56,994 bases of DNA from positions 1 to 56,994 of IMG/VR virus record IMGVR_UViG_3300042197_003393; one strand, given 5' to 3'. A program made the position numbers and the translations under genes. Positions 2,236-41,632 of this stretch are shown in pieces. Under the pieces are notes generated by a model. The model saw only the letters and a program-made list of their open reading frames with translations, was not told the origin of the DNA and made no database searches. The stretch's first letter is position 1; the number at the start of each line of letters is the position of its first letter. Source of the stretch: a virus.

Positions 2236-2240
2236 GTTCG

Positions 2241-2266
2241 TTGACCTCGGACTATATTTTTATAAT
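2241..2266 (+). promoter_or_regulatory. Possible promoter for the plus-strand gene at 2307
   Basis: A TTGACC hexamer at 2241-2246 and a perfect TATAAT at 2261-2266 lie 40-65 nt upstream of the ATG at 2307, between two divergent genes. The spacer is 14 nt, shorter than the 16-18 nt preferred by sigma-70, so it may use only the -10 box or be a phage early variant. Weak call. Confidence 0.35.
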
Positions 2267-2306
2267 ACCATTCTCAATATACAAAGATACCAAAAGGAGA
2301 CTTGCC

Positions 2307-3396: not shown

Positions 3397-3407
3397 GAAA
3401 TGACTCC

Positions 3408-4007
3408 TTACGACGGCAAGTAACCTCTGTTTCTGTTATGTTCGTAAACTAGACGACCGATCTCAGCCCAAAAATACTTCTCCAACATTCTATTAGACAC
3501 CGAATGAGTTCTTTTAATCTCCTCGTTAACCAAAACACGTTCAGCTTTTACCGGGTATTGGTGAGAGAATCGTTCTATATATTGTTCGGCTAAAGCCTTC
3601 AAAAGATGCGCTGAAGTATTCTCCAGCGCTTCGCTTGTCATCGGCAATTTAATGTTCACTGTCTCGGATACCGCCATCGCTCTGTTTATCTCCACTCGTT
3701 CCTTCACGGTCGGGTCGGTAGGCAAAATCATACGTCGATTTTCGCGTCTTGAGCTCAAATTAGCATAGCATTGCTCTAAAGTCAACACGGTCTTAATTAC
3801 ATGATTTCCATTGTCATCGACAACTACCGGAAAAACCATTCGTTGCGCATCATTGTACAACAGATACTCGTTATTTAGCTGTCCACCAAACACAATCGCA
3901 TCACATAAATACGTTTCCAAAGAATCTGACACATGTATAAATCTCTCCCTAAGCCGCATGCGCGCATGATCGGTAATTAAATATATAGATGAGTCACCTT
4001 GGCTCAT
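3408..4007 (-). CDS. Hypothetical protein, 199 aa (possible DUF4258/RelE-like N-terminus)
   Basis: The first 85 residues (ITDHARMRLRERF, then YLLYNDAQRMVFPVV and KTVLTLEQC) have the layout of small RelE/DUF4258-like domains, with an N-terminal His-Arg helix followed by beta strands. The remainder is helical and basic. This similarity is weak. ATG start at 4005-4007 without a clear Shine-Dalgarno; it lies 11 nt upstream of the metallopeptidase gene and is divergent from the glycosyltransferase operon. Function unknown. Confidence 0.6.
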   Translation of the reverse strand: MSQGDSSIYLITDHARMRLRERFIHVSDSLETYLCDAIVFGGQLNNEYLLYNDAQRMVFPVVVDDNGNHVIKTVLTLEQCYANLSSRRENRRMILPTDPTVKERVEINRAMAVSETVNIKLPMTSEALENTSAHLLKALAEQYIERFSHQYPVKAERVLVNEEIKRTHSVSNRMLEKYFWAEIGRLVYEHNRNRGYLPS

Positions 4008-4032
4008 AATTATTCACGATTCTAAAAATACT

Positions 4033-4707
4033 TTGACACAATCTTTGTGTGCTATTATTAGTCTTTTCCGAGACAACGTTAAAGACGTAATAAGGCTGAC
4101 GAATGAACGGATGGCTTGGACAGTAAACCAAGATCATTTACTACATATCTGCGTTGAGGGTGATAGCGTCGATGACACCTATTCTAAATTGATGCGCATT
4201 AAAGGGATAAACACTAGGATCATTAAAAAGGACCTAGGTAACATAAGATATGGAAGCTATGCAATACCTGAACGCTTGCAAGTTCTCGCCACTTTATGGA
4301 ACGCAGGACTAGAAGCCGCGATAGATGCTAAAGCCAACTATGTGCTGATCCTAGATTCTGATATAAAAGTGGGACCGCATGCATTAGCTAGACTCTTAGG
4401 TCGACAAAAAGACGTAGTGGCTCCCATGTTAATGTGGGAAAAACGCCCCACTTATTTTCGCGATACTTGGGGATATTTCAAAGGGAGTCGTGATTTCCAA
4501 AGCCGTCCACCATACCACAAAGCTTATGATCAGAATAATTTGTTTGAAGTGGATGGAGCCGGCGTGCTACTCATTCGTGCTGAAGTATTAAACAAGGGAG
4601 CACGCTTCGACAATATGGAAGTCAGAGGCTTTTGCGGACAAATACGAAAATTAGGATTTAAGATTTACGTAGATCCTAAGACTCATGTGCACCATCCGGA
4701 GATATAA
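4033..4707 (+). CDS. Glycosyltransferase, GT-A fold (family 2-like)
   Basis: 224 residues. An N-terminal beta strand (LCAIISLF) is followed by a helix, then VLILDSDIKV with the metal/nucleotide-binding D108-S-D110, and a later strand around EVDGAGVLLIRAEVL, the usual acceptor-side region of GT-A enzymes. It should transfer a sugar from a nucleotide donor to an unknown acceptor. No ATG is available upstream of the core fold; the frame starts at TTG 4033 (or TTG 4045) with no good ribosome-binding site. First gene of a three-gene plus-strand operon with 1-nt overlaps, followed by cupin and sugar aminotransferase genes. GT-A assignment is good, exact family moderate. Confidence 0.75.
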   Translation: MTQSLCAIISLFRDNVKDVIRLTNERMAWTVNQDHLLHICVEGDSVDDTYSKLMRIKGINTRIIKKDLGNIRYGSYAIPERLQVLATLWNAGLEAAIDAKANYVLILDSDIKVGPHALARLLGRQKDVVAPMLMWEKRPTYFRDTWGYFKGSRDFQSRPPYHKAYDQNNLFEVDGAGVLLIRAEVLNKGARFDNMEVRGFCGQIRKLGFKIYVDPKTHVHHPEI

Positions 4708-17094: not shown

Positions 17095-20000
17095 TCATTT
17101 CTGCTTCTCATAGAAATATTTAGGCGGCGTCACTAAAGGCTTGCCTTGGCTAATAGGTATACCTCCTAGTTGTACAGTGTAGGCATCCAATATTCTCTGG
17201 GCAGCGACCTCAGGAAAATCATCAATTGCCCTAGACATAGGCATCAGCAAGTGAGCACCACCGACACCAGTGTATTCTTGCTGGGCCTTCACGCTTTGGT
17301 CATCGCTTAATAATGTGGGACCTGTCTGACTCTTAAAACCCGCACCATTAACATTAGGGCCGAAAGGCGTTAAATTACCAGCATCAACGATGAAAGCATC
17401 GGCAGTGCCTAACAATGCTAAAGCAGAAGCGATCACTAAGTCGTCATGGTTTCCTGATCCCTCTTCAGCCTCCGTCCTTGAGGTATCATGACCTAGCCTA
17501 TCTCTCTTCCTAACATAAGTATGGAATTGTTTTAGTAACCTGTCGCTATAGATCGTATACCCTTCATCTGGATTATCTCTCATGCAGTTTATCAAAAACT
17601 GATTAAGCGTCGGCTTACTAGCCATAGTGGTAGCAAAGCCATAAGCAGCCACCTTCATCGCCCGAGCACGCCTACGACCGCGTCCTCCTGGCTGTGGCTT
17701 ATCGTTTATCTCCTTTTTTCTCCATATCCGCGGATACATCACATTATATCTCAACTCGTCGATAATTATATCACCACCGTTGTTCCTTTCGATTATCGCT
17801 AATGCACAATTGTACCAGCGTCCAATTCTGTCGATATAATATACCAGATCCCGAGGCAGGCATCTGGCCATAAATTCAGCTACTTGTTCTCTCGTATAGA
17901 CATCGAATACCTCGATGGCATGGAAATCCTTTCCTTTGCCGGTGGCGATGTCGATACCCATCACATAGGGGTGAGCGGGTGTGCCAGTCTCTATTATTTC
18001 AGCACCACGCCTTTTCTCTGGCTTGGCAATAACTGGCCTCCGCCATACCCAAAATCCCTCTGACTCATCATTAAACTCAAAAACAAGTTCTCTAGTTTCG
18101 CCAGAAACGGGATGAACATAGGGCTGAGAGCCTTTAACACGCTGATTCGGCTCACAGACAGTAGTCGCCATATAAGATAGCACTTCTTTGGATAGTACTG
18201 TATTACCAGAACCTATGAATGATGCCAATATCTCTTGTTCAAATTTCCATGCCTCTCCCTTGGCTTGCAATGCTCTATATTGCTGTTCTAGCCAAGGCGA
18301 CGTATATGGTCCATATCTTAGAATATCTTCCTTAGTGGTGCACTTTCGAATATTATCTCTCGGCGCTATTCTCTTATGCTGCTTCGAGATAGGATCATCG
18401 TACTCTATCTCCCAATCCATGTCATACCAATTTATTACGATAGGATTAAATTGGTTGACTCCGGCTTCAGCCTCCGTCATCGTCGCCCAATACCAGTTAC
18501 CAACACCATTGGTGGTTGATATAACGATCACGTTGCCACCGTGCTGAAGTGTATTATGGCTCACTAAGCCATTGGCTAAATATGTATTATTATGCGGTAC
18601 TGATAAATCAAAAGTATCAGCTTTGTCCGCACTGCATAATTGTACTTTATCGAAGAAAAGGCCCATGTCGACAAATGATTGTAAGCGGCAGTTTATACCA
18701 AATTCAATAACCAGTGATCTTATTAAACTAATTCGTATTCTTCCCAAACGCTTGATACGCAAAATGTTCCATTTCCTTGCGTCTTTGCATTCCCTAAATG
18801 TACCTCCGTTCTTCATCCGATCCAAGACCAGATTGGTAAATTCGCCCACTAAAACTGGGTGGTCTATTTCTGATGCCGTATTCTCAAATCGATAAGCGTC
18901 GATAATATCTTGTTTTCGCTTAGTAATAAAGCCAATCTTATCCCTAAATGCGATTTTACTCTCCGCATCCCAAACATCAACGCGCCAATATGGCTTATCA
19001 CTATAACGCAAGTCATTTCTGTCTGGTGTTCTCTCTGTTTCTACCATATATCTTCTTGCCATAATCCCAAGTGCATGGAGTATCACTTGCACTTCCTGAG
19101 CTAGCCTCTCGCTAACTGTGCTAAATCCTAGTTTAAGGGATGTTGATGACTTATAGCACCACCCGTCTGAATCAAATAATCCTCGCAAAAACGCACATAC
19201 GACCTTCTCGTCACTCCTTAGAACAAGAGCTGGAATCCTAGCGTCATGAGCAGATGACTTTGAGTTTAAATCATTGTCTGACATTATGTCGATAAACTTG
19301 CTAGAGTTTAATCGAAAGTTTTCAGTATCATATTCCGTCTCAGCATATGCCTTTGAATCAAGCGCCAATTCTAAGTTATTGAATTTTTTAATCATCAAAT
19401 CTCTCGTAGCCACATCTTGTGGGTCAAAGGCAATTCGTAATCTTTTTGGTCTATTGATGCTCAGATACCCATCACCAATGTATAATCCTAATATCTCTGC
19501 CAGCTCAGGTGATAATTCAATCCCATTTTTTAAAAACTGTCGCTTGCCGGTGAATTCACCGGGTTTAGATATGATAATATCATCCGGCCTCAATTCGGAC
19601 ATTGCTCTCCATACGTAAAACCCTTCTTGATCAATTATTCTTACTTTATGATGTTCAGCAGCTCTGATCGTATATCCTAAGTTAGTAGTCATTTCGACTA
19701 TCTGTTGATACCCAGATACATATGCCTTATCGCTATACTGATATCCTTCATCGGTCGCTACGCTAATACTATGCGCCTTCCAAGGATTTCCCCCTCTGCA
19801 AAGTTCATCTAGCCTGACTAGACCTTGGTCCGTCTGAATTAGCGTTTCACCAGTAGCGCATGGCCAGCCTCCCGCCCACATCGCATCCATACCTTGTATG
19901 AATGCCGCCTCATCGATAATGTTCAATGATGAAGCATTAGATCGCAGAACATCCGGATGCGATGTAAGACTAGCAATTCTGGATCCGTTAGGGAATAGTA

Positions 20001-20388
20001 GCTCATGTTCATTTTGCTTCACTGGCTTCCATACGTCCTTCATCCACTTCGGTAAATTATCGTAAAGAAATACTATCTGCTCACGCAAGAATGACATCGC
20101 ATCCTCATCGCGCCTCGACACGATAAGAATAGTCTTATGACTATGAAACATAGCGAACCATAAAGCAAATGCGCCAGCTATCTTAGACGCACCGGCTTGG
20201 CGGCATTTTCTGAAAATATTTAATCTATACTTCCTAAATGCTTCTATAGCCCGCACTTGATAGGAAAATGGCGTAAATGGTATGATGCCTGCTGATGGAT
20301 GCTTTAATTTACCAAAGTTCTTTAAAAACCACACCACGGATGCCTGACACCGCTTTATCACTTCCTTCTGCTTCGGTGAGATATTCAT
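17095..20388 (-). CDS. 17: Terminase large subunit, T4 gp17-like, interrupted by an intein
   Basis: DNA-packaging ATPase and nuclease. The 1097-residue precursor contains an N-terminal ATPase with a Walker A variant RKCRQAGASK (residues 60-69), Walker B NIIDEAAF (D159, E160), and, after the intein, the coupling motif region VISTTNG. The RuvC-type nuclease has GIDIATGKG (Asp near 811), AIIERNN (near 863) and GNHDD (near 981). Removing the 436-residue intein leaves 661 residues, close to T4 gp17 (610). The start ATG overlaps the small-terminase stop in ATGA. The 3' end lies 4 nt from the convergent CAP gene. Confidence 0.95.
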   Translation of the reverse strand: MNISPKQKEVIKRCQASVVWFLKNFGKLKHPSAGIIPFTPFSYQVRAIEAFRKYRLNIFRKCRQAGASKIAGAFALWFAMFHSHKTILIVSRRDEDAMSFLREQIVFLYDNLPKWMKDVWKPVKQNEHELLFPNGSRIASLTSHPDVLRSNASSLNIIDEAAFIQGMDAMWAGGWPCATGETLIQTDQGLVRLDELCRGGNPWKAHSISVATDEGYQYSDKAYVSGYQQIVEMTTNLGYTIRAAEHHKVRIIDQEGFYVWRAMSELRPDDIIISKPGEFTGKRQFLKNGIELSPELAEILGLYIGDGYLSINRPKRLRIAFDPQDVATRDLMIKKFNNLELALDSKAYAETEYDTENFRLNSSKFIDIMSDNDLNSKSSAHDARIPALVLRSDEKVVCAFLRGLFDSDGWCYKSSTSLKLGFSTVSERLAQEVQVILHALGIMARRYMVETERTPDRNDLRYSDKPYWRVDVWDAESKIAFRDKIGFITKRKQDIIDAYRFENTASEIDHPVLVGEFTNLVLDRMKNGGTFRECKDARKWNILRIKRLGRIRISLIRSLVIEFGINCRLQSFVDMGLFFDKVQLCSADKADTFDLSVPHNNTYLANGLVSHNTLQHGGNVIVISTTNGVGNWYWATMTEAEAGVNQFNPIVINWYDMDWEIEYDDPISKQHKRIAPRDNIRKCTTKEDILRYGPYTSPWLEQQYRALQAKGEAWKFEQEILASFIGSGNTVLSKEVLSYMATTVCEPNQRVKGSQPYVHPVSGETRELVFEFNDESEGFWVWRRPVIAKPEKRRGAEIIETGTPAHPYVMGIDIATGKGKDFHAIEVFDVYTREQVAEFMARCLPRDLVYYIDRIGRWYNCALAIIERNNGGDIIIDELRYNVMYPRIWRKKEINDKPQPGGRGRRRARAMKVAAYGFATTMASKPTLNQFLINCMRDNPDEGYTIYSDRLLKQFHTYVRKRDRLGHDTSRTEAEEGSGNHDDLVIASALALLGTADAFIVDAGNLTPFGPNVNGAGFKSQTGPTLLSDDQSVKAQQEYTGVGGAHLLMPMSRAIDDFPEVAAQRILDAYTVQLGGIPISQGKPLVTPPKYFYEKQK
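18553..19860 (-). other. Intein with LAGLIDADG endonuclease in the terminase gene
   Basis: Residues 177-612 of the terminase precursor. It starts with Cys177 (CATGETLIQTDQGLV, block A) and ends with LVSHN, where His611-Asn612 is followed by Thr613 as the first C-extein residue. Block B is near AAEHHKVR. Two LAGLIDADG motifs, LGLYIGDGY (about 300-308) and LRGLFDSDGW (about 401-410), keep their acidic residues, so the homing endonuclease looks intact. Insertion lies between Walker B and the coupling motif of the ATPase, a typical choice of a critical site. All splice-junction residues expected for activity are present. Confidence 0.95.
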
Positions 20389-25274: not shown

Positions 25275-28200
25275 TTATCCGCCATTTTGCAATACGCAAC
25301 TATCGTTGTCACAGTAGGTACTGCCGACAGCTTCCATGATATATGCACTATAGTCAGCTGGCTTTATCTTCGAGTTATAAGCCTCGACTTCTTCTGGCTT
25401 ACAAGGTTCGTAGGGGGCTTGAGCGTACCCGTGACCCATATGGGGCAGGAAGCTGATGCCTTTTAACTGATCCTCGTAGGCCTCTAATACCCTGCAAATT
25501 TCGGAACGTTCTGTATACTTAAATTTAACAGTACACGAGACTTGGTTATCTGCCCAATATCTTTGGTAATCAGCGGCATTCGCCATCTGCTCCCAAATAG
25601 TCACATCTTCCACCGGCCTGACACGCTCATCATTTACTGCGAATTTGACGACAATTGTTCGATCCGGATCACTGATCGTCGGTTCAATGTGGTATCCGGC
25701 ATCGCTGAGGATTTTTACTAAGATGCTATCCTTCGCTATTCTGACCCGCCTCCAATATGTCGATGCCTCGGGATGATGAATTCCTGGAGTAGCTCCGGCT
25801 ACGAGTGATACTGTCCCACTCGGCTTGACGGATGTTACCTTGATAGACTTTTGGATACATAACCATTCCGAGTATATCTCATCCCAACGCCTAATTTCAT
25901 TGTATCCAGCGTCGCAAAAGTCTTTAATGACCACACGGCGACCAAATTTGGAGAATGCTTGCACTATGCCACTCTGCGATAATCCTATGCGTCTGTTGCG
26001 CAACGTTACTTGGTTAGTTCTTGGATTATGGGTCGGCAATAATGTCACCGTCTTTGCATAAAGATATGCGAATTTCAACGTCCTCATGTAATCTTCAGCA
26101 TCTTCGTGATTAGCTGGAAACGTCTCCACCAAATTGCATAACTCATATGATTCTAGGCTCTGTTCCACACAAGGATTCGATCCCATGACACGCCCATCAA
26201 TCCCAGGTTGGCGACCATCGGTAAGCCTTCCATAATCGCGCATATTGCATAGCCAAATAAGGCCAGGCTCACCATTGACAGCTATCTGCTCGGAAATCTC
26301 TTTATAATCCATACCGACATTAGCGAATATAGAGTTATTTGATGCCCAGCGATGATGATTCATGGCGTTCCATGTCTCAATTGCTGGTGCAAGTCTATCG
26401 TTTGGTATGCCGGTGGATTCAAAATCGGATAATCGTGCTTTGGGACATGCGTCTTTTGAAGTCTTTAAAGCCTCAGCCCATATATTGCCAGTAACATTCT
26501 CAAACGCCGCTACTTCAGATGCTAATAATGTCTTCTTATAATTCTTCATGGATGCATATTTAATGTCGTCAGCATCACCAAAGGCAATTTCAGCTGTATT
26601 ATGGACCAATAGTCCTTCTGCCACGAATTCATTGCGGTCCGGGACAGATAAATCATACGTCTCGACTTCAACACCTTCATCTACAACCGAATCTACACGA
26701 ACCGGTATTAAGTTAGAGGTTTTAACTTCACAAAGCAACGCTCTATTATATGTCATTTGCCGCTGCTGAGGCGACCAAGAACGTCCATAGTCTACATTTC
26801 CCTTTACCCATTCTGAAGGATATCCAAAATCGTGCCCGCTGGCATGTTCCATCTGACGAATCTTCTTAACCGCATACGGTTGGATTAGGTCGATGAATCT
26901 TACTATTGCAAAATCGCCGGCCATTGATAACACCCATTTAGCTTGGGCTTTTTCGGTAGCAACAGCTTGTAACTTCATTTTAGTCGGAATACCGAGGCTG
27001 GAATACACTGCTTGGACTTGTCTGACAAAATCCCGATAAACACTCACTAATAATGTAGTTGGTCGATTCTTTGTAGAGCCATCGGTGTCCATTAACCCAG
27101 CTACATATGCAGCTCTAATAGCGGGCTTTGCCATCCTTATAAATTCAGGAACGTTAAGTGGCGCCTTGGACTGCTTTACATTAGTATGCAAATATTCAGC
27201 TAGCTTTCTAGACACGACTCGATATTTGACGCAATTATCATCAGAAGGCTGGACTTTAATGTTCTCATATCCAAAAGCAGCAAACCCGGCATTCACTTTA
27301 TCCACGAGAGCATCATGGTATTCATCCTTATTAATAGGGATCATTACTGACGCACCGTGATGTTTACGGCCTTTATATTTTCTGCCATTGTATACATAAC
27401 CATCGCCGTGAATGGCGCCAATGAACCAACCAACATCGGTGGTCAAAGAAGGCACTACGAACGATTCATCGCTTACTCCATACCCGGGCAGTACGGTGTC
27501 AGTGCCTTGAATAACAGCATCTACGAATACCAAACGGTCATCAGTCTGTAATTGGTAGGCTCTCTTCCACTCGTATTGGCCGATACCTGTCATGACGGCG
27601 ACGCGATGCCTATCCGTGCATCTGAAAGATCCTAATTGACTGTTAATGGTAATGACACGTTGCACACCTTGTTTAACGTTTTCTGATACAGAATGATAGC
27701 CATCAGCAGTCAATACCAGATCACCTACCACTACTTGTTCAATCGGTACCAATCCACGCTTTAAATGGACCAGAGTACCCTTAGGCAAGCAACGGCGGAC
27801 ATTGCCAGCCACCACGCACCTGCCAATGTAGTTCATTAAATCAGTAATATCGACACTATCAAGCGACTTGCCACAACGCGCATCAAGATGATTGCGAATT
27901 AAACCATGCAATTCGATTAGGATCTTGGATCCGGACGCTTTTCCACCAAATCCCTTAATCGTCTCTCCATCCTTACGTATAGCAGAATAATCGAAATCTA
28001 ATTCGCCTTCCGATACCTTATTGGTATAAGACTGAATCAACTGCCTAACTGAATCAACCCATCCCTCTCTCGAATCAGCTATTATATACTTCTTCTTGAT
28101 ATTAGCCGGCCGATGAATAGTGATTTTACCTGCGCCTTTAGTATCAAAACCGACGCCTACGCCAAGCATAGACATGTCCATCAAGAAGCAAAAGGGCTCT

Positions 28201-28721
28201 GCGGGATCCGATTCCATCAGATCATGGGTGCTCACAAAGCCACAATTGTTCAATGCGGCACTACCTCGGTCCCACATAAACTGAGTACCCATCATCCATA
28301 GGCCGCGACCCGGAGGTAAGAATTTGAAACTCCACATTCTTTCGAACATCTCATGCGCCGATGTCAATGCCTTTTGGTAATCCCAAGGGATGTGTAATCT
28401 CAGACAGTGCTGCCTTTGAATTTCATAGCAACCTTCTACTACTCTTGTCAATGTGTCTAAAAACGTCTCTTTCGTATTATCAGCGGCGAGACGGGAGTAA
28501 GTGCGATAATAAACTAACTCACCCAACCCATTAAATCCAAAGTTAGGCTTCTTACCATTGTACTGATTTAAAAAACCAGCGTCGAGTCTAAAATGGTCAC
28601 CGTGGATTTCATTGTGCATACGGCCGAAATATTGTTCGGAGATATTTGGCACATGTTCCAAATTATTCTTGGCTCCCACGCCGTTAACCTTCGTCCCATT
28701 TTTCACAATCGTAACGCTCAT
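25275..28721 (-). CDS. nrdJ: Adenosylcobalamin-dependent (class II) ribonucleotide reductase with intein
   Basis: Reduces ribonucleotides (triphosphates in this monomeric type) to deoxyribonucleotides. The 1148-residue precursor minus a 398-residue intein gives 750 residues, the size of Lactobacillus RTPR (739). Landmarks: LNNCGFVST (C160), SNPCVEQSLESYELCNLVE with the radical-site cysteine, PSGTVSLVAGATPGIHHP, and the C-terminal redox pair CDNDSC. No radical-subunit gene is needed because B12 generates the radical. The ATG at 28719-28721 has GGAGAAG 3 nt upstream; an in-frame TTG at 28733 overlaps that site. Start overlaps the upstream stop (ATGA). Confidence 0.95.
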   Translation of the reverse strand: MSVTIVKNGTKVNGVGAKNNLEHVPNISEQYFGRMHNEIHGDHFRLDAGFLNQYNGKKPNFGFNGLGELVYYRTYSRLAADNTKETFLDTLTRVVEGCYEIQRQHCLRLHIPWDYQKALTSAHEMFERMWSFKFLPPGRGLWMMGTQFMWDRGSAALNNCGFVSTHDLMESDPAEPFCFLMDMSMLGVGVGFDTKGAGKITIHRPANIKKKYIIADSREGWVDSVRQLIQSYTNKVSEGELDFDYSAIRKDGETIKGFGGKASGSKILIELHGLIRNHLDARCGKSLDSVDITDLMNYIGRCVVAGNVRRCLPKGTLVHLKRGLVPIEQVVVGDLVLTADGYHSVSENVKQGVQRVITINSQLGSFRCTDRHRVAVMTGIGQYEWKRAYQLQTDDRLVFVDAVIQGTDTVLPGYGVSDESFVVPSLTTDVGWFIGAIHGDGYVYNGRKYKGRKHHGASVMIPINKDEYHDALVDKVNAGFAAFGYENIKVQPSDDNCVKYRVVSRKLAEYLHTNVKQSKAPLNVPEFIRMAKPAIRAAYVAGLMDTDGSTKNRPTTLLVSVYRDFVRQVQAVYSSLGIPTKMKLQAVATEKAQAKWVLSMAGDFAIVRFIDLIQPYAVKKIRQMEHASGHDFGYPSEWVKGNVDYGRSWSPQQRQMTYNRALLCEVKTSNLIPVRVDSVVDEGVEVETYDLSVPDRNEFVAEGLLVHNTAEIAFGDADDIKYASMKNYKKTLLASEVAAFENVTGNIWAEALKTSKDACPKARLSDFESTGIPNDRLAPAIETWNAMNHHRWASNNSIFANVGMDYKEISEQIAVNGEPGLIWLCNMRDYGRLTDGRQPGIDGRVMGSNPCVEQSLESYELCNLVETFPANHEDAEDYMRTLKFAYLYAKTVTLLPTHNPRTNQVTLRNRRIGLSQSGIVQAFSKFGRRVVIKDFCDAGYNEIRRWDEIYSEWLCIQKSIKVTSVKPSGTVSLVAGATPGIHHPEASTYWRRVRIAKDSILVKILSDAGYHIEPTISDPDRTIVVKFAVNDERVRPVEDVTIWEQMANAADYQRYWADNQVSCTVKFKYTERSEICRVLEAYEDQLKGISFLPHMGHGYAQAPYEPCKPEEVEAYNSKIKPADYSAYIMEAVGSTYCDNDSCVLQNGG
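26598..27791 (-). other. Intein with LAGLIDADG endonuclease in the reductase gene
   Basis: Residues 311-708 of the reductase precursor. It begins with Cys after GNVRR (CLPKGTLVHLKRGLVPIEQV), has a block B-type DRHRVAV, and ends LLVHN before Thr of TAEIAFG. Endonuclease motifs VGWFIGAIHGDGYV and YVAGLMDTDGS retain their acidic residues. The site, in the conserved active-site barrel, is one used by other reductase inteins. It is clearly different in sequence from the terminase intein, so the two were probably acquired separately. Confidence 0.95.
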
Positions 28722-29368
28722 GGTCTTCTCCAATCGTCACCAAAGATACTCTGCGAAACACACACATTGTTAGTGTCAGAGAAAAATGTATTCCTTAATA
28801 AGTATAATGACGTAGGCGCAGGAAGCATACGCGATTCCATCACATCGCCTTGTAATCTCAATAATGCCTTATAACATGGCCTAGATAAAGCTATAAAGTG
28901 ATCTGAGATCCTTGACGCTTGATACCAAATAATTAGTGTCGGAAGAGCACCATGTCCTGACCGATGGAGCAATGTAGCCAACGGATCATTACCTATATGA
29001 TTATCATACCACGTCTTTTGCATGTTCAATGATGCTATGATGTTATCATTCTCATTTTTTTCATTATTCAATATATCATAGCATATGTTGAGCATGTTAG
29101 TCTGATGCAACGCCGCTAAGCCCTTTTTGAGTACGCCCCTCAGTTTTGCTTGGGCTACTGCGATACGTATAAATCTGATTGCGGTATCATCGTCAAAATT
29201 CCATTCATTAAACTTCTCAGCAATAGCCTTGACGAATCGCCATTGATAAGTCTTGCGAATGTCATTGGCTTGCGGTAGCTTTATTTTAAATCCGTGCTGT
29301 AAATACGCATCTGAACACCAATCCCAGATAACTCTAATTCGTGTATCTGATAAGAATGCGATGTTCAT
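28718..29368 (-). CDS. Hypothetical protein, 216 aa
   Basis: Unrecognised, mostly helical protein. The ATG at 29366-29368 is preferred to an upstream in-frame TTG at 29401 that would overlap the divergent gene. It contains a Lys/Arg-rich helical part (about 60-85) and an Asn-rich stretch (NNEKNENDN). The stop overlaps the reductase ATG in ATGA, so it is translationally coupled to nucleotide metabolism, but no motif links it to that process. Confidence 0.6.
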   Translation of the reverse strand: MNIAFLSDTRIRVIWDWCSDAYLQHGFKIKLPQANDIRKTYQWRFVKAIAEKFNEWNFDDDTAIRFIRIAVAQAKLRGVLKKGLAALHQTNMLNICYDILNNEKNENDNIIASLNMQKTWYDNHIGNDPLATLLHRSGHGALPTLIIWYQASRISDHFIALSRPCYKALLRLQGDVMESRMLPAPTSLYLLRNTFFSDTNNVCVSQSIFGDDWRRP

Positions 29369-32800: not shown

Positions 32801-33706
32801 TCAATTATCCGGATCATAAGCATAATGCTCTACTTCTTCCTTAGGGCATTCTTCAAACGGTTCATTGTAGGTTTTAGCCCGATCTTTAGGCTCTAAAACC
32901 TTCGGTAAAATAGGACGCTCTTGGAACCCGAACCTTAGACCGCCAGCGGCAGAAGCGCCTGCACCATCCCCGGGCTTCGCATTTGTCAGTATGGCGTTTA
33001 CCCTCTCCGCATTGACAACCCCGGATGTGTATAATCCATTAGACAATGTCATCGCAGCATCGTCCGTCTGAAACGCTATGATCTTCTTAGCTCTAAAGGT
33101 CATACTGCTGCCAGAGTCAATCATCAACTCTGAATCTGTCTTGATACGCACGTTCCCTTTTGCGTAAATGACTACTTCGCCAGCTTTATCGCCATTGAAG
33201 ATCACGATGCGTCTCTTCGCTTCCTCCATGAACATATACATCTTACGCTTCTTCTTAGCCCGCATGATAGACAATTGATACTTTTTAGAAAACCACACGC
33301 CTCTATGTTCAGCATCAACGACCTCTACCCATGGGCCGCTTCCCTTCCTACCATCTCGCATTTCAATGCCTTGATTTAAGGCCTTCTTACCAAGACCTGA
33401 TCGATTGGTCACAGATGTTAAAGGATTTAGCTCTTCCACTGTCTTATTCAATGCATTTATAACATCATTAAGTGCCTTATTTAACTCGTCACCAGGATTA
33501 TCAGAAACCGACGAGTTTAAGACTTTGTTCTTTGCGTCGTCTATGGCCGATATAATTGCCGCTAGCTGATCCTCTTTTCCTTTCAGCTCAGGATTGTTCA
33601 TCGCATCGACCAACTTTTGTGTCGCTTGGTCAAGCAGATCGGTAACCACCCTTACACCGTCACGGCGGTCCTCGACATTGCCACTCGGGCCATCTTTCCA
33701 ATTCAT
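32801..33706 (-). CDS. Spike C-terminal (gp5C-like) protein encoded separately
   Basis: 301 residues. Residues 18-100 are a helical module (LLDQATQKLVDAMN, IISAIDDAKN, INALNKTVEEL) that recurs in the upstream gp5-like protein. Residues 120-235 show repeated short strands typical of spike beta-helices (KAGEVVIYAKGNVRIKTDSELMIDSGSSMTFRAKK). T4 gp5 is cut after assembly into a lysozyme part and a beta-helix part (gp5C); here the second part seems to be its own gene. ATG with GGAG 7 nt upstream, overlapping the previous stop in ATGA. Role inferred from structure-like repeats and position. Confidence 0.6.
   Translation of the reverse strand: MNWKDGPSGNVEDRRDGVRVVTDLLDQATQKLVDAMNNPELKGKEDQLAAIISAIDDAKNKVLNSSVSDNPGDELNKALNDVINALNKTVEELNPLTSVTNRSGLGKKALNQGIEMRDGRKGSGPWVEVVDAEHRGVWFSKKYQLSIMRAKKKRKMYMFMEEAKRRIVIFNGDKAGEVVIYAKGNVRIKTDSELMIDSGSSMTFRAKKIIAFQTDDAAMTLSNGLYTSGVVNAERVNAILTNAKPGDGAGASAAGGLRFGFQERPILPKVLEPKDRAKTYNEPFEECPKEEVEHYAYDPDN
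33520..33651 (-). repeat. Helical module copy 2 (in the gp5C-like gene)
   Basis: Encodes LLDQATQKLVDAMN followed by AAIISAIDDAKN. The same two segments occur in the gp5-like gene at 34278-34600 in cyclically shifted order, with obvious DNA similarity (for example ACTTTTGTGTCGCTTGGTCAA against AGTTTTTGTGTTGCTTGATCAA, shown on plus). Confidence 0.8.
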
Positions 33707-35766
33707 TGCCGCTCTCCCAAAATCTTACTAACTTCTTCTAGTATCAACTTCACTTGAATTAGTTCGCCCTTTGCCCCAACTGGCCCTGACTCCGGCTTAG
33801 GCCCCTTACCAGCTCGTGTCTTAAGGCGAATATATTCATTGTCATGATCTAGCTTTAGGTGATGTGAATTTCGCTCCGGATTTCTTATCATGGTAGGCTT
33901 GCGTATGAATTCGTTCTCCTTTAAACCCTTATGTTTCGGCGTCCATTTCTTTCCCATCGAAGCACATAAGATCGCATATTGATATCTGTCATTCATTTCT
34001 AATGACAGACCCATCGGCGTTCCGACAGATAAATGATTAGCCTCATCATTCTCATTAAATTCGAAGTAAAACCCCCGCTGATCTTTATGGGCTCGCCTTT
34101 TCTTAGCTGCTGGCGCTCGCCTGCCCTTTATCAATATGCCATTAGCCCTTCTGTAGGCAGACTTATGAGCTCTGACTCTATCACTGCCTCTATCGTCGAG
34201 CACTATCTTAAGTCCATATCGTGTGACTATTCTGATCCAACGCGCATCCTTAACCTTGGACACGGCACCGATCTTGTTCATGGCTTCGACAAGTTTTTGT
34301 GTTGCTTGATCAAGGAGATCGCTTACCTTCTTGGCCACATCCTCAGGGTTCTTTCCTTCACGTTCTTCCAAAATCTTGCTGGCCTCCTCAAGTAGCCGTC
34401 TTACCCCCTCTAATTCAACTTTTATGCCCGCTGGTTCTGATAATAAAAAGGCTATCTCTTCATTGGTCTTTTCTATGGCAACTATCACACTATCATAGGC
34501 CTCGTTAAAATCATTATATGGTAATCCAGATATTCGCTTCGCATCATCTATGGTCGATATGATAGCCACCAGCTTATCTTCTCGAGCGATCCAGTTTGGA
34601 TTAGCATTCTCATTCTGACCCCAGTATTTGTTTTCCTGCTCACTGCCGGCACCTTGCTCCGCCACCAATTTTCGCCGAATGAATGTGTCTCTAGTCGGAT
34701 CATATCCCTTATCATATGCTTGGATTAACATGCCTGCCTTAGTGCGAATCTTAATCCAACGATAGTCATTCTTCACTTCTGATGATATCGTAGTCGGCTT
34801 CGCATACTCATTAGGTCTAGTATAAGAGCGGACTGGCCCCATTTGCGCCCATCCGACATCACGGCATTCAAAGCGATGTCCATATCTTGTCAACGTCGTA
34901 ATTCTGCGCTGATCAGCATTATCGGCTGGCTTATCATTTTGCATCGTGAATGGCTTATCTTCATTTATTAACCTCTGCATGTATAACCATCGACGGCGTT
35001 CAAAAGCATCATCCTTCTTGGGATCACCGCCAAACTCGCCAATATCTGGAACGGGTGTCTTGTTGTACCAATAATACCCTTGGTCGCCCATTATAATCAT
35101 ATTGCCATATTTGGTAACGCGAGCCATGTACTTTTTATCTGGCTCATTGATAGCAGGTTTATCCTTCTTTATCTTAAATCTAGCTTGTCTATATGGATCA
35201 TAATCTGCTGGAACGGGAAATGTGTCATGCGATACGGGATAAAATCCAATAGATGAGTGAATATCTAGATTACCATATCGATCTTGCCACCCATGCATCA
35301 TGGGCCGACCGTCTTTCGGGATATAGCGCGGATCGTAGCTAAGCTTCTTTGGTTTTTGCTCGCTCTTAGGGACTCTACCGAATTCGTTCAAAACAACTGA
35401 AGTTCTATTGAAGATCTGAGGGAACGTGTAGAATTTGCCTCTTGTCGGAGTTGCAAACCCTATCCAAACAGGACCATAAGGATGCTGTTTTTCAAAAGTA
35501 ATCCAGATCCAATCACCAATACATGGATGCGAAAATCGTCCGGCCCGTGTACCTCCCATGTCATGGGCTGGAACGGCCCAAGGACAATCCTCCTCATCCA
35601 TAGTAAAATCGTGAAGCTCGGGGCATTTAAATCTAACGCGATACATGTTAAGGGGATCGTTGGTCTCGACTACATATGCCCTATATAGACCTGGAAATCT
35701 TTCCCACAATATCTTACTTCGCTGCCCGAAGAATTTTCCCCAAATAATGTAATGATTATCTGACAT
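33703..35766 (-). CDS. Baseplate hub/spike protein with gp5-type OB fold
   Basis: 687 residues. The first 120 match the gp5/VgrG OB domain (GLYRAYVVETNDPLNMYRV, CIGDWIWITFE, GPVWIGF). Afterwards come several repeats of the form R-x-T-x-Y-G-x-x-I-x-x-D-x-G (YMARVTKYGNMIIMGDQG, RIVTRYGLKIVLDDRG, RWIKIRTKAGMLIQ), as in VgrG/gp5 spikes. No lysozyme domain is seen, unlike T4 gp5. About residues 389-490 hold inserted helical modules, and the end (LILEEVSKILGERQ) is the first half of another such module that seems to continue in the next gene. ATG-TGA overlap joins the two. Confidence 0.8.
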   Translation of the reverse strand: MSDNHYIIWGKFFGQRSKILWERFPGLYRAYVVETNDPLNMYRVRFKCPELHDFTMDEEDCPWAVPAHDMGGTRAGRFSHPCIGDWIWITFEKQHPYGPVWIGFATPTRGKFYTFPQIFNRTSVVLNEFGRVPKSEQKPKKLSYDPRYIPKDGRPMMHGWQDRYGNLDIHSSIGFYPVSHDTFPVPADYDPYRQARFKIKKDKPAINEPDKKYMARVTKYGNMIIMGDQGYYWYNKTPVPDIGEFGGDPKKDDAFERRRWLYMQRLINEDKPFTMQNDKPADNADQRRITTLTRYGHRFECRDVGWAQMGPVRSYTRPNEYAKPTTISSEVKNDYRWIKIRTKAGMLIQAYDKGYDPTRDTFIRRKLVAEQGAGSEQENKYWGQNENANPNWIAREDKLVAIISTIDDAKRISGLPYNDFNEAYDSVIVAIEKTNEEIAFLLSEPAGIKVELEGVRRLLEEASKILEEREGKNPEDVAKKVSDLLDQATQKLVEAMNKIGAVSKVKDARWIRIVTRYGLKIVLDDRGSDRVRAHKSAYRRANGILIKGRRAPAAKKRRAHKDQRGFYFEFNENDEANHLSVGTPMGLSLEMNDRYQYAILCASMGKKWTPKHKGLKENEFIRKPTMIRNPERNSHHLKLDHDNEYIRLKTRAGKGPKPESGPVGAKGELIQVKLILEEVSKILGERQ
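34278..34600 (-). repeat. Helical module copy 1 (in the gp5-like gene)
   Basis: Encodes, in order, AIISTIDDAKR, VIVAIEKTNEEIAFLL, LLEEASKILEER and LLDQATQKLVEAMN. All four segments have counterparts around the junction of the two spike genes (SKILGERQ, LLDQATQKLVDAMN, AIISAIDDAKN, VINALNKTVEEL), so the module is duplicated with a different starting point. Confidence 0.8.
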
Positions 35767-36083
35767 TAACCAATAACCTCTGGAATAACCACTGACTCGA
35801 TCGGATATTTAATCGTCTCTCCCGCAGCTGGCCAATTTAATACTTCACGAGCGTTATTATAGGCTATCAGCACCCAAAATAATTTAGAGTCAGAATATAC
35901 TTCGGCCGCTATTAAATCCGGTCTACCAGCCCTAGCAGAAGTGACTTGATATCTGCCTATCTGCGACTCAGGCAATTCGGTCACCAAAAAATCTTGCCGT
36001 ACCCATTGCCCATAAGTCTCATATCCTGACATGGTGACCAGGTCAGTTTTAGTAAATCTAGATGATTCTGATTTCACCACCAT
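35766..36083 (-). CDS. Baseplate wedge protein, T4 gp53-like
   Basis: 105 residues from the ATG at 36081-36083, which has GGGAG 8 nt upstream; a GTG at 36092 is less likely. RPDLIAAEVYSDSKLFWVLIAYNN followed by NWPAAGETIKYP is the gp53/LysM-like pattern of short wedge or tail proteins. It overlaps the previous gene by 1 nt and the next by 1 nt. Role: bridging wedges around the hub. Confidence 0.7.
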   Translation of the reverse strand: MVVKSESSRFTKTDLVTMSGYETYGQWVRQDFLVTELPESQIGRYQVTSARAGRPDLIAAEVYSDSKLFWVLIAYNNAREVLNWPAAGETIKYPIESVVIPEVIG

Positions 36084-36802
36084 TAATACCACTCCCTAGT
36101 CAGACCCTCTTCTAAAAATCTTAAATCATTGATGCCGGTATTACGTATTGGGTTATCATCCCCATCAAGGGCAAAACCCCTCGTCCAATGCGCTATCGTC
36201 ATGGTAACATCGGTCTTAAATGGAAAGGCAGTTTTAGTCCGCGCCCTTGGCAGCTGCGGGATGGTAACGGGATTTAATCCTAAAATAGACGGAGCATCGT
36301 TAATTCTGACGTTATTAGCTTCGATAATCATAGTCTCGCTGTACTTAATATCTAAATTGACCATTCGAAATGTCATCCATTTTTTTTGACCGCCAATCGC
36401 CCATAATTTAACCCATATCGCTAAATCTCTCTGACTCTTGTTGGTAACAATGGTGACCCTATGAAAGTATCCTCTCAACAATCGTAAATTGGCAGATATT
36501 CTAGCATGATCCCATATGCCTCCGCCTGCCCATGGCAATTTATTATTTATATAGCTGAAAGCTAACGTAATCTCCCTAGGCCCAGAGCTCGAGTACTGCG
36601 TTATTGGTTCGTTAGAGCCTGGGACATTATCAACAGTCTTCCAGTTAATCTTTCTACTATCAGACGTTACGCGCGGTGGATATTGAAATTGTAACCAAAT
36701 ATAATCAGCACCAGCACCATCTATGTTCGTAAATGCTACATAACATGAGTCGCCATCGTTACCTAGTCCTGATAATGCTAAATCACTATTTATAAAACCC
36801 AT
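36083..36802 (-). CDS. Tail/baseplate protein in gp48/gp54 position
   Basis: 239 residues from the ATG at 36800-36802 (GGAG 6 nt upstream, TGATG overlap with the tape-measure stop). Beta-rich with FQYPPRVTSDSRKINW and GPREITLAFSYIN, a layout seen in proteins at the tube-baseplate junction of contractile tails. In T4 the order 29-48-54 puts tube-initiator proteins right after the tape measure, so such a role is plausible. No direct motif match was recognised. Confidence 0.55.
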   Translation of the reverse strand: MGFINSDLALSGLGNDGDSCYVAFTNIDGAGADYIWLQFQYPPRVTSDSRKINWKTVDNVPGSNEPITQYSSSGPREITLAFSYINNKLPWAGGGIWDHARISANLRLLRGYFHRVTIVTNKSQRDLAIWVKLWAIGGQKKWMTFRMVNLDIKYSETMIIEANNVRINDAPSILGLNPVTIPQLPRARTKTAFPFKTDVTMTIAHWTRGFALDGDDNPIRNTGINDLRFLEEGLTREWY

Positions 36803-39800
36803 CACTTACTCCACGCTGAAAACTCATGTAATCCATCTGTCTTTCTTGCTATCTTTGGAAGGTAAGTCATTAGCGCCGACAAGATATTAGCGATGGTAAC
36901 CTCGTCCGGGCCTTTTATGTTCTCGATTATCGTCTTTAATTCAGTTAGGACATTTACTATAGCGGCTGGCGAATTAGCATCGGCAGTGACCACATTAATG
37001 TTATCATCCTTCATGACCCTCACAGTTGAAATCGCTTCCGATTTTACAGCTTCGGCTAGTCCATTTTTCTCAGCTATCTTCATGGCCTCTGCGGCTTTAG
37101 TATCGATGGCTACCCATATCCTGTCCGATAACACTTCAATGCGCTCTACGTAGGCCTCGAGCTGATCTCCAATTTTATTTAAGGCATCACCTATGTCGAT
37201 GGATTTAAACTTTTCTGCCATCTCTGCGATTTTATCAGATATAGTGTCAATAGACGGCAGTAACGTTAGAATTTTATCAGTGATGCCAGCCGTCTTGATG
37301 GTCATATCATCATACATCTTACTTAACGTTGCTCCAACATTCGTCGACTGCAAAGCAATCTTATCGCTCGCAGATGCTAACTTATCTGCTAATGCCATGA
37401 TCGCTGGCGCAACATCCATGCTCTTCTTAACATTATCATAAATCTTCGCAACATCAATACGTTCCAATATATATAAGGCGCTCGCTATGTCCCTAATAGA
37501 CGAAGCGATAACGGACATATCGGCTTTATATTTCACCATAATCTTAATAGAATCTACGAAAGCGACCAATTCATCTCGCGCATATGATAATGCATAAGCA
37601 AACCGATAGACTGATGCAGTTAACAAGTATAAAGTAGCCGAAAATATAATCACCACTGATAATGACGCATATTTTTCTATTATCTTGAATAAATCCGAAA
37701 GCGCTACGTCTAATTGCGGCACGCACTCCATAAGTATAGTAACACCAGCACATAATTCAGTAGCTGCTGCTTGCATCATCAATCCAAGGTTATAAATCGA
37801 ATCGACAGCACCAAACAATAGCGCTAAACTCAAATCAATACTGACAGCAGCATCTGCGAGCTTAAAACTAGATAGGTAAAAATAATCGACCGATAAATAG
37901 AAAATCTGACCACTCTCTAACATCGTCAAGGCCAACGATTTTAAAATAGGAGCCTCGATATCAAACTCTCTCGCTACATTTCCAAGCTCAAGCATCGCCA
38001 TAACCAAAGAAGGAGTCGTCTCTACCAATTTACTGGTCGCCATACCTAATATGCTTACCGCCGTATGTAGAGTGATCGCACCGATAAGCATCATACTAGA
38101 CGATGCGACTAATATACCGCTTGATGCCGCTAATTTAGAGACTATTGAATCCATTATGTTTAATGTAATGTCTAATATAGCAGCCCCAGCATTTAACTGA
38201 ATAGCGCCGTCCTTCAATATAGGTCCGGCCATGCCAAGTCTACCGCCAACAACCGTTAACTGCTGAAATTGTGGTTCTAGGCCATCCAATACTTTGCCAA
38301 GTTTAAACATTGACGCTTCTAACAATTCCGCCGCAGTACCAAGCCATTCTCCAGCATAATAAAGCCCGTCAGCGCCAATCTTAAATCCTTCACCAGCAAC
38401 GCGGAATTTTTCTCCGTATTCCTTCATATATCCAGCTACGGGCTTAATTGCCCATGTCGCAAGGTATAATGCAGCAACACCAGCTGTTAATGTTGCAGCA
38501 GCTAGTAAAAAAATAATGCCAGCGATGAATAAGGCCACAGCTCCGATAAGCATGCCAAGGCCACCAAGTAATATCGATGTGCCGGCCATTAGGATACTGT
38601 CTGCGACATATAATAGCTGTGGCATATCCTTTGATATTTCTTCTACTAATTGAGTTAATAATGGCGATACTTCTTTAAAGATATTAACTGCAAGGCGTAA
38701 AAGATATGCACCTAGTAATAAGAACAAAGAGCCAATAATTAAAAAAAATCCTGCTATGATTAGTAATATACCAGATACGATCATTATAGCCGCCCCAAAG
38801 CCTACGGCTATTCCGGCCGCTATGACTTCGATACCTAAACCTATGAGGAATCCGAGTCCGACTTTTTCTTTATACTTTATTATGGAGTCTGCGGCCAGCG
38901 TAAAGGCATAAGCGAAAATAACAAATGCCACAGCTATTATAAAGACCGCTAAGGCTAGAACGAGTACAGCTACAAGTACAGCGCCACCACTTGCGACCAT
39001 AATTATCCCAGCTATCACCAATGCAGCTATCAACCCTACTACGGCAACCGTTAATAATATAATCGCCGCCGCACCGCCTTGGCCCATGGTAGCCGCAACA
39101 CGCTCTATAGCGTAGGATAAAATATAAGCAGCAACCGCAACAGCTATTAGTGCGACCGCTAATACTATTACTCCTAAGGCATTCCTCGCAAATGGCCTTA
39201 GGAGGCTATCCAATGCTGTTCCGATCGTACGCGCCATATACACAATGCCTTGAGCTATAGTTCTAAACATACCCGAAATGATGGATCCTAGTGACCCACT
39301 TGTTCTCCCTAAGCCGGTGAGCCAAGTGATAAGACCGGAAATGGAACCACCGGCAAGGAAAGTCGCACCTCGAACCAATGCCATAGTGCCTATGTATAAT
39401 ATAAACGCTCCAATAACGGCACGTATTAAGAATTTGATGGTGGGCAAATATGGGCCAAGGTATTGACTTAGGACCTTATATACTTTATAAAAAGCTTGCG
39501 CAAATTCACGAAGAACCGGCGTTGATTCGATAAATTCTTTAATCGCATTTTTTACGTATTCCGCAAACTGGGCTATCTTCTCTCCGCAAATTATGATAAA
39601 GTCGATTATCCTGATAAGGACGATAATTGTATCTCTTATACAATCGGCAAAGAATTGCAAAATGACGCCTAAGAACGCAAATTTTGACTGTAATTCAATC
39701 AATGCACCAGTTAGAGTATTCATCGATTCGTCTTTTAATTGTTTCATCGTCTCCTTTTGTATTTCTAATATATCATTAATATTATTCATATCTCTGCCAG

Positions 39801-41103
39801 CGGCTGCTGCTGCTTTCTGTAAATCCCTAAAACGATTGCCTAACATGAGACCCTGCGTAGCATTTATCCCCATCGACTCTTGCAATGCCTTCATTCTGAA
39901 TGTTAGCGCGAGGCTTGACTCGCCAGTATCTCTAATATGTTGTTCTTGTGCTTCCATCACTTCTGCAAACTTCTGTCCCGCCTTATTCATAGCCACATTC
40001 ATGTCTTCAACGTTATTAATAATCTGCCCAGCGCCAGCACCAAATCTAATCGACGCTTCAGGATCTGAAAGTTTATCGAATAATTGCGTAGCCGCAGATA
40101 CAGGTATACCAGCCTTCTTGGCCATTGCCATCATAGAAGCTTCAAAATCCGTTAAGGTACGTATAGCATCTGGTCCAAACCTATTAGCGAATTGAGTCAT
40201 CACTTCATCACTTTTACCCAATAGCGCATTTACGTCTTGTGTGTTCAGCCCAAACTGCTTCATCCTATTTGCAAATAATTCAATAGTCTGTGATGCCATA
40301 TCAGATGACTGTCCAACCATGCGTAATTTACGCGTATAATCAGCTAACGTAGTCGCAGACGCTCCTGTTACTCTTTGGGCCATACCGATAGATCGACTCA
40401 GTTTCGCCATATCCTCAATTGGTGTAGCTGCGTCCGCAAGGCTCTTTATAGTGGCAATCGCTTGTTCACTCGTAATGCCCAGTTCCTGACTAAGCATTCT
40501 TGTGCTGTTTAAAAGCTCTTGCTGGCTACCATATAATCTATAATTAGCCGTGACGAAGTTTTCCGTGCCTTTGTCAATGTTTGCGAAATACCTTACTACC
40601 GTTAAGACGGCATTGGCGATATCTCCCCATGTCTTTGTTTCTTTCTTTAACTTATCGTTTTCCGCATCATGTTTTTTATTCTTCTCATCAAGCATCTCGT
40701 TAAAGCCAGTTAATGACTTGGTGAATTCACCCCAGGTCTTCTTTTCGAGCACGCCTTGCTTATTTGTCTCTTCATAGTGCTTCGATGCCTTTTTATAACC
40801 TTCGATTAGCTGTTTCTGGCTTTCGACCTGCGAGAGCAAATGCTTTGAGATTTGATCGTTCGAATCATTGAATACTCTAGCATAATCATTTAATAAGTTA
40901 AAATCAGCGTTAGTCTCGTCTAACGTGGCGGCTATCGATTGCGTAACTGTTACGATGGAACCAAGAGCGGAATTAGCTATGGCGGAGACCGACTGCTCTA
41001 GGGATTGGAATTTGACAATAACATCATCTAATTGCTTGTCTGCTGCGGCAGAGTCAAGGGCTAAGGTTACTTGTAATGCATAAACATTAGGATCGATAGC
41101 CAT
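36802..41103 (-). CDS. Tail tape measure protein (gp29 functional analogue)
   Basis: 1433 residues, the longest virion gene here. Predicted helical throughout: a coiled-coil N-terminal third, a region (about 170-360) with the globular tape-measure pattern SLADAATPIEDMAKLSRSIGMAQ and GASATTLADYTRKL, a long hydrophobic central part (about 550-900) with repeated membrane-like helices (IAGIIMVASGGAVLVAVLVLALAV is part of it), and an amphipathic C-terminus. The length sets tail length; hydrophobic helices may enter the host membrane during DNA ejection. ATG preceded by GGGG, with a stable hairpin just upstream. At 1.5 angstrom per residue it implies a tail of about 200 nm. Confidence 0.9.
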   Translation of the reverse strand: MAIDPNVYALQVTLALDSAAADKQLDDVIVKFQSLEQSVSAIANSALGSIVTVTQSIAATLDETNADFNLLNDYARVFNDSNDQISKHLLSQVESQKQLIEGYKKASKHYEETNKQGVLEKKTWGEFTKSLTGFNEMLDEKNKKHDAENDKLKKETKTWGDIANAVLTVVRYFANIDKGTENFVTANYRLYGSQQELLNSTRMLSQELGITSEQAIATIKSLADAATPIEDMAKLSRSIGMAQRVTGASATTLADYTRKLRMVGQSSDMASQTIELFANRMKQFGLNTQDVNALLGKSDEVMTQFANRFGPDAIRTLTDFEASMMAMAKKAGIPVSAATQLFDKLSDPEASIRFGAGAGQIINNVEDMNVAMNKAGQKFAEVMEAQEQHIRDTGESSLALTFRMKALQESMGINATQGLMLGNRFRDLQKAAAAAGRDMNNINDILEIQKETMKQLKDESMNTLTGALIELQSKFAFLGVILQFFADCIRDTIIVLIRIIDFIIICGEKIAQFAEYVKNAIKEFIESTPVLREFAQAFYKVYKVLSQYLGPYLPTIKFLIRAVIGAFILYIGTMALVRGATFLAGGSISGLITWLTGLGRTSGSLGSIISGMFRTIAQGIVYMARTIGTALDSLLRPFARNALGVIVLAVALIAVAVAAYILSYAIERVAATMGQGGAAAIILLTVAVVGLIAALVIAGIIMVASGGAVLVAVLVLALAVFIIAVAFVIFAYAFTLAADSIIKYKEKVGLGFLIGLGIEVIAAGIAVGFGAAIMIVSGILLIIAGFFLIIGSLFLLLGAYLLRLAVNIFKEVSPLLTQLVEEISKDMPQLLYVADSILMAGTSILLGGLGMLIGAVALFIAGIIFLLAAATLTAGVAALYLATWAIKPVAGYMKEYGEKFRVAGEGFKIGADGLYYAGEWLGTAAELLEASMFKLGKVLDGLEPQFQQLTVVGGRLGMAGPILKDGAIQLNAGAAILDITLNIMDSIVSKLAASSGILVASSSMMLIGAITLHTAVSILGMATSKLVETTPSLVMAMLELGNVAREFDIEAPILKSLALTMLESGQIFYLSVDYFYLSSFKLADAAVSIDLSLALLFGAVDSIYNLGLMMQAAATELCAGVTILMECVPQLDVALSDLFKIIEKYASLSVVIIFSATLYLLTASVYRFAYALSYARDELVAFVDSIKIMVKYKADMSVIASSIRDIASALYILERIDVAKIYDNVKKSMDVAPAIMALADKLASASDKIALQSTNVGATLSKMYDDMTIKTAGITDKILTLLPSIDTISDKIAEMAEKFKSIDIGDALNKIGDQLEAYVERIEVLSDRIWVAIDTKAAEAMKIAEKNGLAEAVKSEAISTVRVMKDDNINVVTADANSPAAIVNVLTELKTIIENIKGPDEVTIANILSALMTYLPKIARKTDGLHEFSAWSK

Positions 41104-41112
41104 TTTTTACCC

Positions 41113-41152
41113 CACGCAACTATAACGTATGTTTTCTACTTATAGTTGCGTG
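41113..41152. other. 13-bp perfect inverted repeat upstream of the tape-measure gene
   Basis: CACGCAACTATAA at 41113-41125 pairs perfectly with TTATAGTTGCGTG at 41140-41152, loop 14 nt. It fills the gap between two minus-strand genes and ends 9 nt before the tape-measure ATG, right against the GGGG ribosome-binding site. No T run follows in either direction, so it is not a standard terminator; translational control or RNA processing is more likely. Confidence 0.85.
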
Positions 41153-41158
41153 AGATGT

Positions 41159-41632
41159 CTATGGACCTGTAAAAAAGCTCGCCCAACCGTCAGCAGCTGC
41201 CATAGCCAATTGATTCTTGACATACCAGACGGATAGAGAGTCGCCAAGAGATCCCTTTGGAAAAGGTCTGATCTCATCTATGGGAGATTGTTCTCTAAAT
41301 CCAAATCGCGTTTCCGGCGTCCCATAAGCGATTGCCATCTCTGGCGGATACCATTTTCCAGTCGGCAGGTCAATACCGTCGTCATTTGAGTCGATGGGTT
41401 TAACTTCGGGAGGCCTTAACGTCTTCTCCTTCAAATCCAATGCTTTTATTGCTATTCGATAATAGGTGGTATGGACAAGGTCAGGTCTTTTCTGTACATT
41501 CTCGATGTATTTCTTCTTGACGTGCTTTATCAAATCAGGCGTGCCATTCATTATCGCTTGATACAAGTCCTCTTGCGCTCGACTCGTAATATACTCGTTA
41601 ACGTGCTCATTTAAATATCGCTGGAAACTCAT
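41159..41632 (-). CDS. Hypothetical tail/baseplate protein, 157 aa
   Basis: Unrecognised. Helical N-terminus (about 1-70) with many charged residues, then a Pro-rich part (LRPPEVKPI, TGKWYPPE) and a short globular end with Trp residues. ATG with a very strong AAGGAGGA ribosome-binding site. It lies between the hub protein and the tape measure, the place of T4 gene 28, so a hub or tape-measure assembly role is possible, by position only. Confidence 0.6.
   Translation of the reverse strand: MSFQRYLNEHVNEYITSRAQEDLYQAIMNGTPDLIKHVKKKYIENVQKRPDLVHTTYYRIAIKALDLKEKTLRPPEVKPIDSNDDGIDLPTGKWYPPEMAIAYGTPETRFGFREQSPIDEIRPFPKGSLGDSLSVWYVKNQLAMAAADGWASFFTGP

Follow-up and report, generated by a model that had tools for sequence, protein, structure and literature searches.

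Two spike genes and their fused relatives

The stretch of DNA analysed here (the window), from a T4-related myophage, is 56,994 bases long and makes up one virus record. T4-type genes for the portal (gp20), the capsid (gp23), the tail sheath and the baseplate are present in it. The baseplate genes form a cluster on the minus strand in which the order of transcription is a gp53-like gene, g1, g2, a gene for a 249-aa protein, a gp25-like gene and a gp6-like gene. The ORF named g1 (33703-35766, minus strand) encodes a gp5-like spike N-terminal protein of 687 aa, recognized by its Pfam and PHROG matches and by its AF2 model. Its layout is an OB domain (aa 28-104), a beta-rich region holding a four-helix module, and a single C-terminal helix. 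The OB domain matches the Pfam family Phage_base_V (PF04717) above the cut-off (2.3e-11), and the protein also matches phrog_430 (baseplate hub subunit and tail lysozyme) at 6e-7. The second ORF, g2 (32801-33706, minus strand), encodes a spike C-terminal protein of 301 aa, identified through its relatives, its AF2 model and the PHROG matches of fused relatives, whose segment homologous to g2 matches gp5-type PHROGs. In g2, three predicted helices (aa 11-93) are followed by a beta-rich region homologous to the C-terminal ~200 aa of the fused relatives; aa 113-227 are beta strands in the AF2 model, with a weak fold match to spikes, and may correspond to the triple-stranded beta-helix of the gp5/Phage_base_V spike family. 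A Pfam scan detected no lysozyme family in g1 or g2.

A preliminary description of this DNA had proposed that the gp5-like gene ends within a helical module, that the next segment of this module opens the following gene, and that an intact copy lies internally in the first gene. Both ORFs are exactly as described: g1 terminates in ...LILEEVSKILGERQ, g2 starts with MNWKDGPSGNVEDRRDGVRVVTDLLDQATQKLVDAMN, and the intact copy, LLEEASKILEER...DLLDQATQKLVEAMN, lies within g1.

We searched virus contigs for relatives using g1, g2 and family alignments. The search was carried out from both ends, with N-terminal and C-terminal motifs, so that split versions would have surfaced; the searched set may lack the records that are closest to the window. 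Complete homologues were found in ~74 virus records, many of them near-duplicates (54 plus about 20 further), and in all of them one ORF, mostly of about 700-780 aa (e.g. L004, L008, L013, L031, L048, L067), runs across both halves. The OB part and the beta-rich part, which occupy two ORFs in the window, are therefore a single chain in all complete relatives. The closest of these, L004, is identical to g1 at 62% of positions and to the C-terminal part of g2 at 47%. The gene order around the homologous spike is the same (gp53-like, spike, 249-aa protein, gp25-like, gp6-like). The relatives differ from the window in having one spike gene and in lacking the helical modules, absent from all ~74 complete homologue records. 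Among 44 relatives examined, representing 37 distinct proteins, pairwise alignment revealed no insertion longer than 36 aa in the protein body.

In a protein tree, the window is nested among the fused relatives (support for its exact sister is not firm, 80/92), which indicates that the split is derived. Comparison with fused-gene relatives had been suggested as a check, and its outcome, one ORF in every complete relative, fits the split of a once-single gp5-type gene. Together with the location of the break inside a duplicated helical linker, this gives the genetic split good support.

Some of the relatives and neighbouring genes show differences of their own. L123 and L124 (ORF 2042-4558) encode a fused spike of 839 aa with an unrelated, beta-rich-looking insertion of ~70 aa after the KGRR motif. 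More distant fused spikes, in L070, L073, L076, L077 and L080, have ORFs of 858-1062 aa, longer than in the rest of the family, and the extra length appears to be C-terminal. In the window's own baseplate cluster, a 240-aa protein (36083-36805, minus strand) aligned with a 210-aa L004 ORF (query 38-240, subject 53-210) has ~45 additional residues within the alignment.

Two permuted copies of a helical module

Alignment with the fused relatives places two insertions in two different loops of the window's spike, and among the relatives found only the window has them. Insertion 1 (34252-34620, minus strand; g1 aa 383-505), delimited by the alignment, the AF2 model and bundle matches, follows ...ENKYW and is an intact module of 123 aa with helices h1-h2-h3-h4. 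Insertion 2 (~125 aa in total) follows ...GPKPES and is divided between the two genes. Its first part, helix h3' (33706-33786, minus strand), forms the C-terminus of g1 (aa 661-687) and was assigned by alignment and homology to h3; its second part, helices h4', h1' and h2' (33413-33703, minus strand), forms the N-terminus of g2 (aa 2-98) and was assigned by alignment and AF2. The edges of both insertions are sharp in the alignment, where the relatives run from KYW straight into KDARWIRI and from GPKPERP straight into ANPSG.

The repeat is visible already in the DNA (54 nt at 81% and 42 nt at 74% identity). At the protein level, none of 2000 shuffles reached the score for A1-A2 or B1-B2, and the pairs h3-h3' and h4-h4' are each significant separately, again with 0/2000 shuffles reaching the score. 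The two copies are circularly permuted with respect to each other, h1h2-h3h4 in one and h3'h4'-h1'h2' in the other, the alignment score being 214 when rotated and 123 when colinear. The duplicated helical module of the preliminary description is thus real, but its size had been understated: it measures ~125 aa, comprises four helices, and its copies are permuted. We do not claim internal homology between hairpin A and hairpin B, as a single comparison out of four was notable (A2-B1, 1/2000).

Between the module copies, pS is 0.71 and pN 0.24 over 81 codons, and third positions account for 44 of the 83 differences. This is similar to the divergence between the window and the L004 core (pS 0.84, pN 0.23). 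With silent sites near saturation and pN low, the duplication is old and both copies have been maintained as protein. In base composition the inserts resemble the core. Searches for the origin of the module, which used short motifs or BLAST and which a diverged source could escape, found no relatives in phage records, virus contigs, bacterial and archaeal genomes or the contigs of twenty relatives. PDB sequences gave only weak matches to unrelated helical proteins, and Pfam none above the cut-off.

The AF2 models place the helices of insertion 1 at aa 390-413, 417-442, 449-467 and 474-501, and those of the g2 head at aa 11-36, 45-67 and 71-93, with mean pLDDT mostly 65-88. In the models, insertion 1 evidently drives the four-helix-bundle matches of g1, the best of which, 7ah0 (TMt 0.70), is statistically weak (E about 0.2). 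The C-terminal tail of g1 has low AF2 confidence and was modelled as non-helical, the assignment of h3' being made by homology to h3; its helical hydrophobic moment is not above that of shuffles, so it is not clearly amphipathic. A split intein was also considered and rejected, since no Hint or intein match was obtained in g1, g2 or the inserts, and the inserts are modelled as helices.

The junction between g1 and g2

In the second copy, the loop joining h3' to h4' is where the gene breaks, so that the OB protein keeps one helix and the beta protein the other three. By eye, this loop is ~20 nt longer than the intact loop, a difference that is not a multiple of three. An ancient frameshift in a duplicated linker, as proposed in the preliminary description, is a possible origin that agrees with this anatomy (a loop altered by a non-multiple of three inside an old duplication).

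At the break, the stop codon of g1 (33703-33705) overlaps the ATG of g2 (33704-33706) in an ATGA (33703-33706, minus strand). Overlaps of 4 nt are the usual form of junction in this operon, and occur also at 32048/32051, 31662/31665 and 36802/36805. A Shine-Dalgarno site, GGGAG (33714-33718, minus strand), lies 7 nt upstream of the g2 ATG; its duplex energy of -7.3 kcal/mol ranks second among 13 genes and in the top 2% when compared with 336 other ATGs. The site exists because GGA GAG (in SKILGER) replaces the GAA GAA of the intact copy (in SKILEER). Further, a stable local RNA structure of 97 nt (33626-33722, minus strand; MFE -35.7, z -3.17) spans the junction; in it, the beginning of the h4' codons is paired with nucleotides that overlap or adjoin the Shine-Dalgarno site. 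When 216 segments of the cluster were folded, none was as stable and one had a z as low. The intact paralogous stretch lacks a fold of this kind (z about +1).

Two ORFs would also result if an otherwise fused gene had suffered a recent inactivating indel or contained an error of sequencing or assembly. A change of one base in the loop, whose length difference from the intact copy is not a multiple of three, would bring the two frames into register, and the split was seen in one contig only, a degenerate DNA pattern search having found the junction in no other contigs. Such an accident would nevertheless seldom produce what is found at the break: among 47,184 simulated single-base indels in the window's genes, an ATGA at the first ATG arose in 3.9%, a site this good in 0.6%, and both together in only 0.036%, a value that serves as a guide rather than a strict probability because the features were picked after viewing the junction. 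In addition, a long homopolymer is absent at the junction and the insertions themselves are inexplicable by error. We consider error, or a recent inactivating indel, unlikely as the cause of the split. From the ATGA overlap, the Shine-Dalgarno site and the RNA fold, we infer instead that the break is a working gene junction.

Programmed -1 ribosomal frameshifting shortly before g1 ends, which the strong RNA structure at the junction (z -3.17) would also suit, would yield a fused spike, alone or alongside the short g1 product. An in-frame X XXY YYZ heptamer, TTTGGGA (33715-33721, minus strand), a possible but not favoured frameshift site, falls within the six-codon region where a -1 shift reaches the g2 frame, a coincidence expected at ~4% by chance, given that the cluster has 25 such heptamers among its 4292 codon positions. 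However, the shift-prone heptamers named in the passages of PMC5009743 consulted include neither one with GGG as second codon nor TTTGGGA. A stimulatory structure would be expected 5-9 nt downstream of the heptamer; the 40-60 nt that come after the usual spacer fold no better than shuffles, and segments of 40-70 nt after a 6-nt spacer have z values of +0.6 to -1.9. Moreover, the bases of TTTGGGA double as the g2 Shine-Dalgarno site, which is a simpler account of them. Frameshifting seems to us improbable here. A ribosomal bypass like that of T4 gene 60 was dropped upon inspection by eye, as the CAA-to-CAA (28 nt) and GGA-to-GGA jumps reach frames that stop.

Proposed assembly of the spike and comparison with known systems

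T4 gp5, in its gp27-gp5*-gp5C complex, resembles the window's spike in having an OB domain followed by a beta-structured spike. Cleavage falls between Ser351 and Ala352, and the C-terminal beta-helix is retained in the mature T4 particle as a chain of its own, in one trimeric complex with the N-terminal part (PMC3004832). In T4 these chains arise by proteolysis of one product, whereas in the window the corresponding parts are encoded by two genes. T4 gp5 also bears, between the OB domain and the beta-helix, a lysozyme domain of which none was detected in the window's spike. The analogy with T4 drawn in the preliminary description would hold only for the outcome, an OB part and a beta-helix part as separate chains, and fails for the lysozyme domain and for the proteolytic nature of the T4 break.

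The best matches of g1 among solved structures, by sequence profile and fold, are P1 Gp5, the R-pyocin spike, VgrG and eCIS spike structures. In VgrG the hub is fused to the spike. To our knowledge, none of the matched structures is a spike made from two genes and joined through a helical module, and we know of no helical module at the break of T4 gp5, nor of a helical clamp holding its pieces. No published report of a two-gene gp5 spike was found in the journal literature covered.

We propose, with a probability of roughly 60%, that the window encodes a gp5-type central puncturing spike split in two genes with coupled translation, assembled as a trimer of 3+3 chains whose halves are probably held by a rebuilt four-helix bundle. 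The ancestor would have had a single spike gene. Two copies of the ~125-aa four-helix module, mutually permuted, would have entered two spike loops in the window's lineage, and the second copy would then have been the site of the gene break, in the loop that connects two of its helices. The break point would subsequently have turned into an ordinary gene junction with its ATGA, Shine-Dalgarno site and structured RNA. As these signals suggest, ribosomes that end the OB protein may start the beta protein, so that both chains are co-produced; by homology to gp5, both would assemble into the trimeric spike, three of each. On structural reasoning, h3' of the OB protein and h4'h1'h2' of the beta protein could then rebuild a four-helix bundle and clamp the halves. 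Taking these steps together, the split is probably derived and genuine, with two chains made through coupled translation and rejoined in the trimer; the re-docking of the chains by the broken bundle is plausible, and perhaps occurs, as one plus three helices of a predicted bundle.

It could be argued that the two genes are functional but the modules mere decoration or spacers, the beta-structure of the trimer joining the chains as it does gp5* and gp5C in T4. The modules are not needed for assembly in the relatives, and the cleaved pieces of T4 gp5 remain together in the particle (PMC3004832). Likewise, the L123/L124 insertion occupies a third loop, unused by the window's modules, which indicates that the spike loops tolerate added domains. 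Against this, the break falls exactly between two module helices and both flanks are retained, as expected if the bundle is rebuilt but otherwise unremarkable; we regard mere decoration as doubtful. Building on the rebuilt bundle, a more specific arrangement can be put forward tentatively, in which three split, circularly permuted four-helix bundles staple the separate OB and beta-helix products together round the trimer, the copy in the neighbouring loop being unbroken and unpermuted. This would be a natural split-protein joint, and could in principle free the spike tip.

In T4, gp5 is cut once assembly has taken place, which makes proteolysis part of how the spike halves become separate. If the halves are indeed separately encoded in the window, the covalent link between them would be dispensable, and the phage would be a simple model in which to study how a trimeric puncturing spike stays together while it pierces. 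The permuted module pair, with one copy intact and one split, would moreover represent a natural gene fission inside a duplicated domain, in which the fission point became a proper gene start.

Three further features were observed elsewhere on the minus strand of the window. A B12-type ribonucleotide reductase gene (25275-28733) is split by an intein that contains a LAGLIDADG homing endonuclease (~aa 315-712), and the terminase large subunit gene (17095-20388) carries a second intein, also with a LAGLIDADG domain (~aa 208-612). Finally, a strongly folding RNA (~41069-41165, z -5.8), perhaps a terminator or a regulatory hairpin, lies around the gap between a 157-aa gene and a 1433-aa gene, the latter possibly the tape measure.
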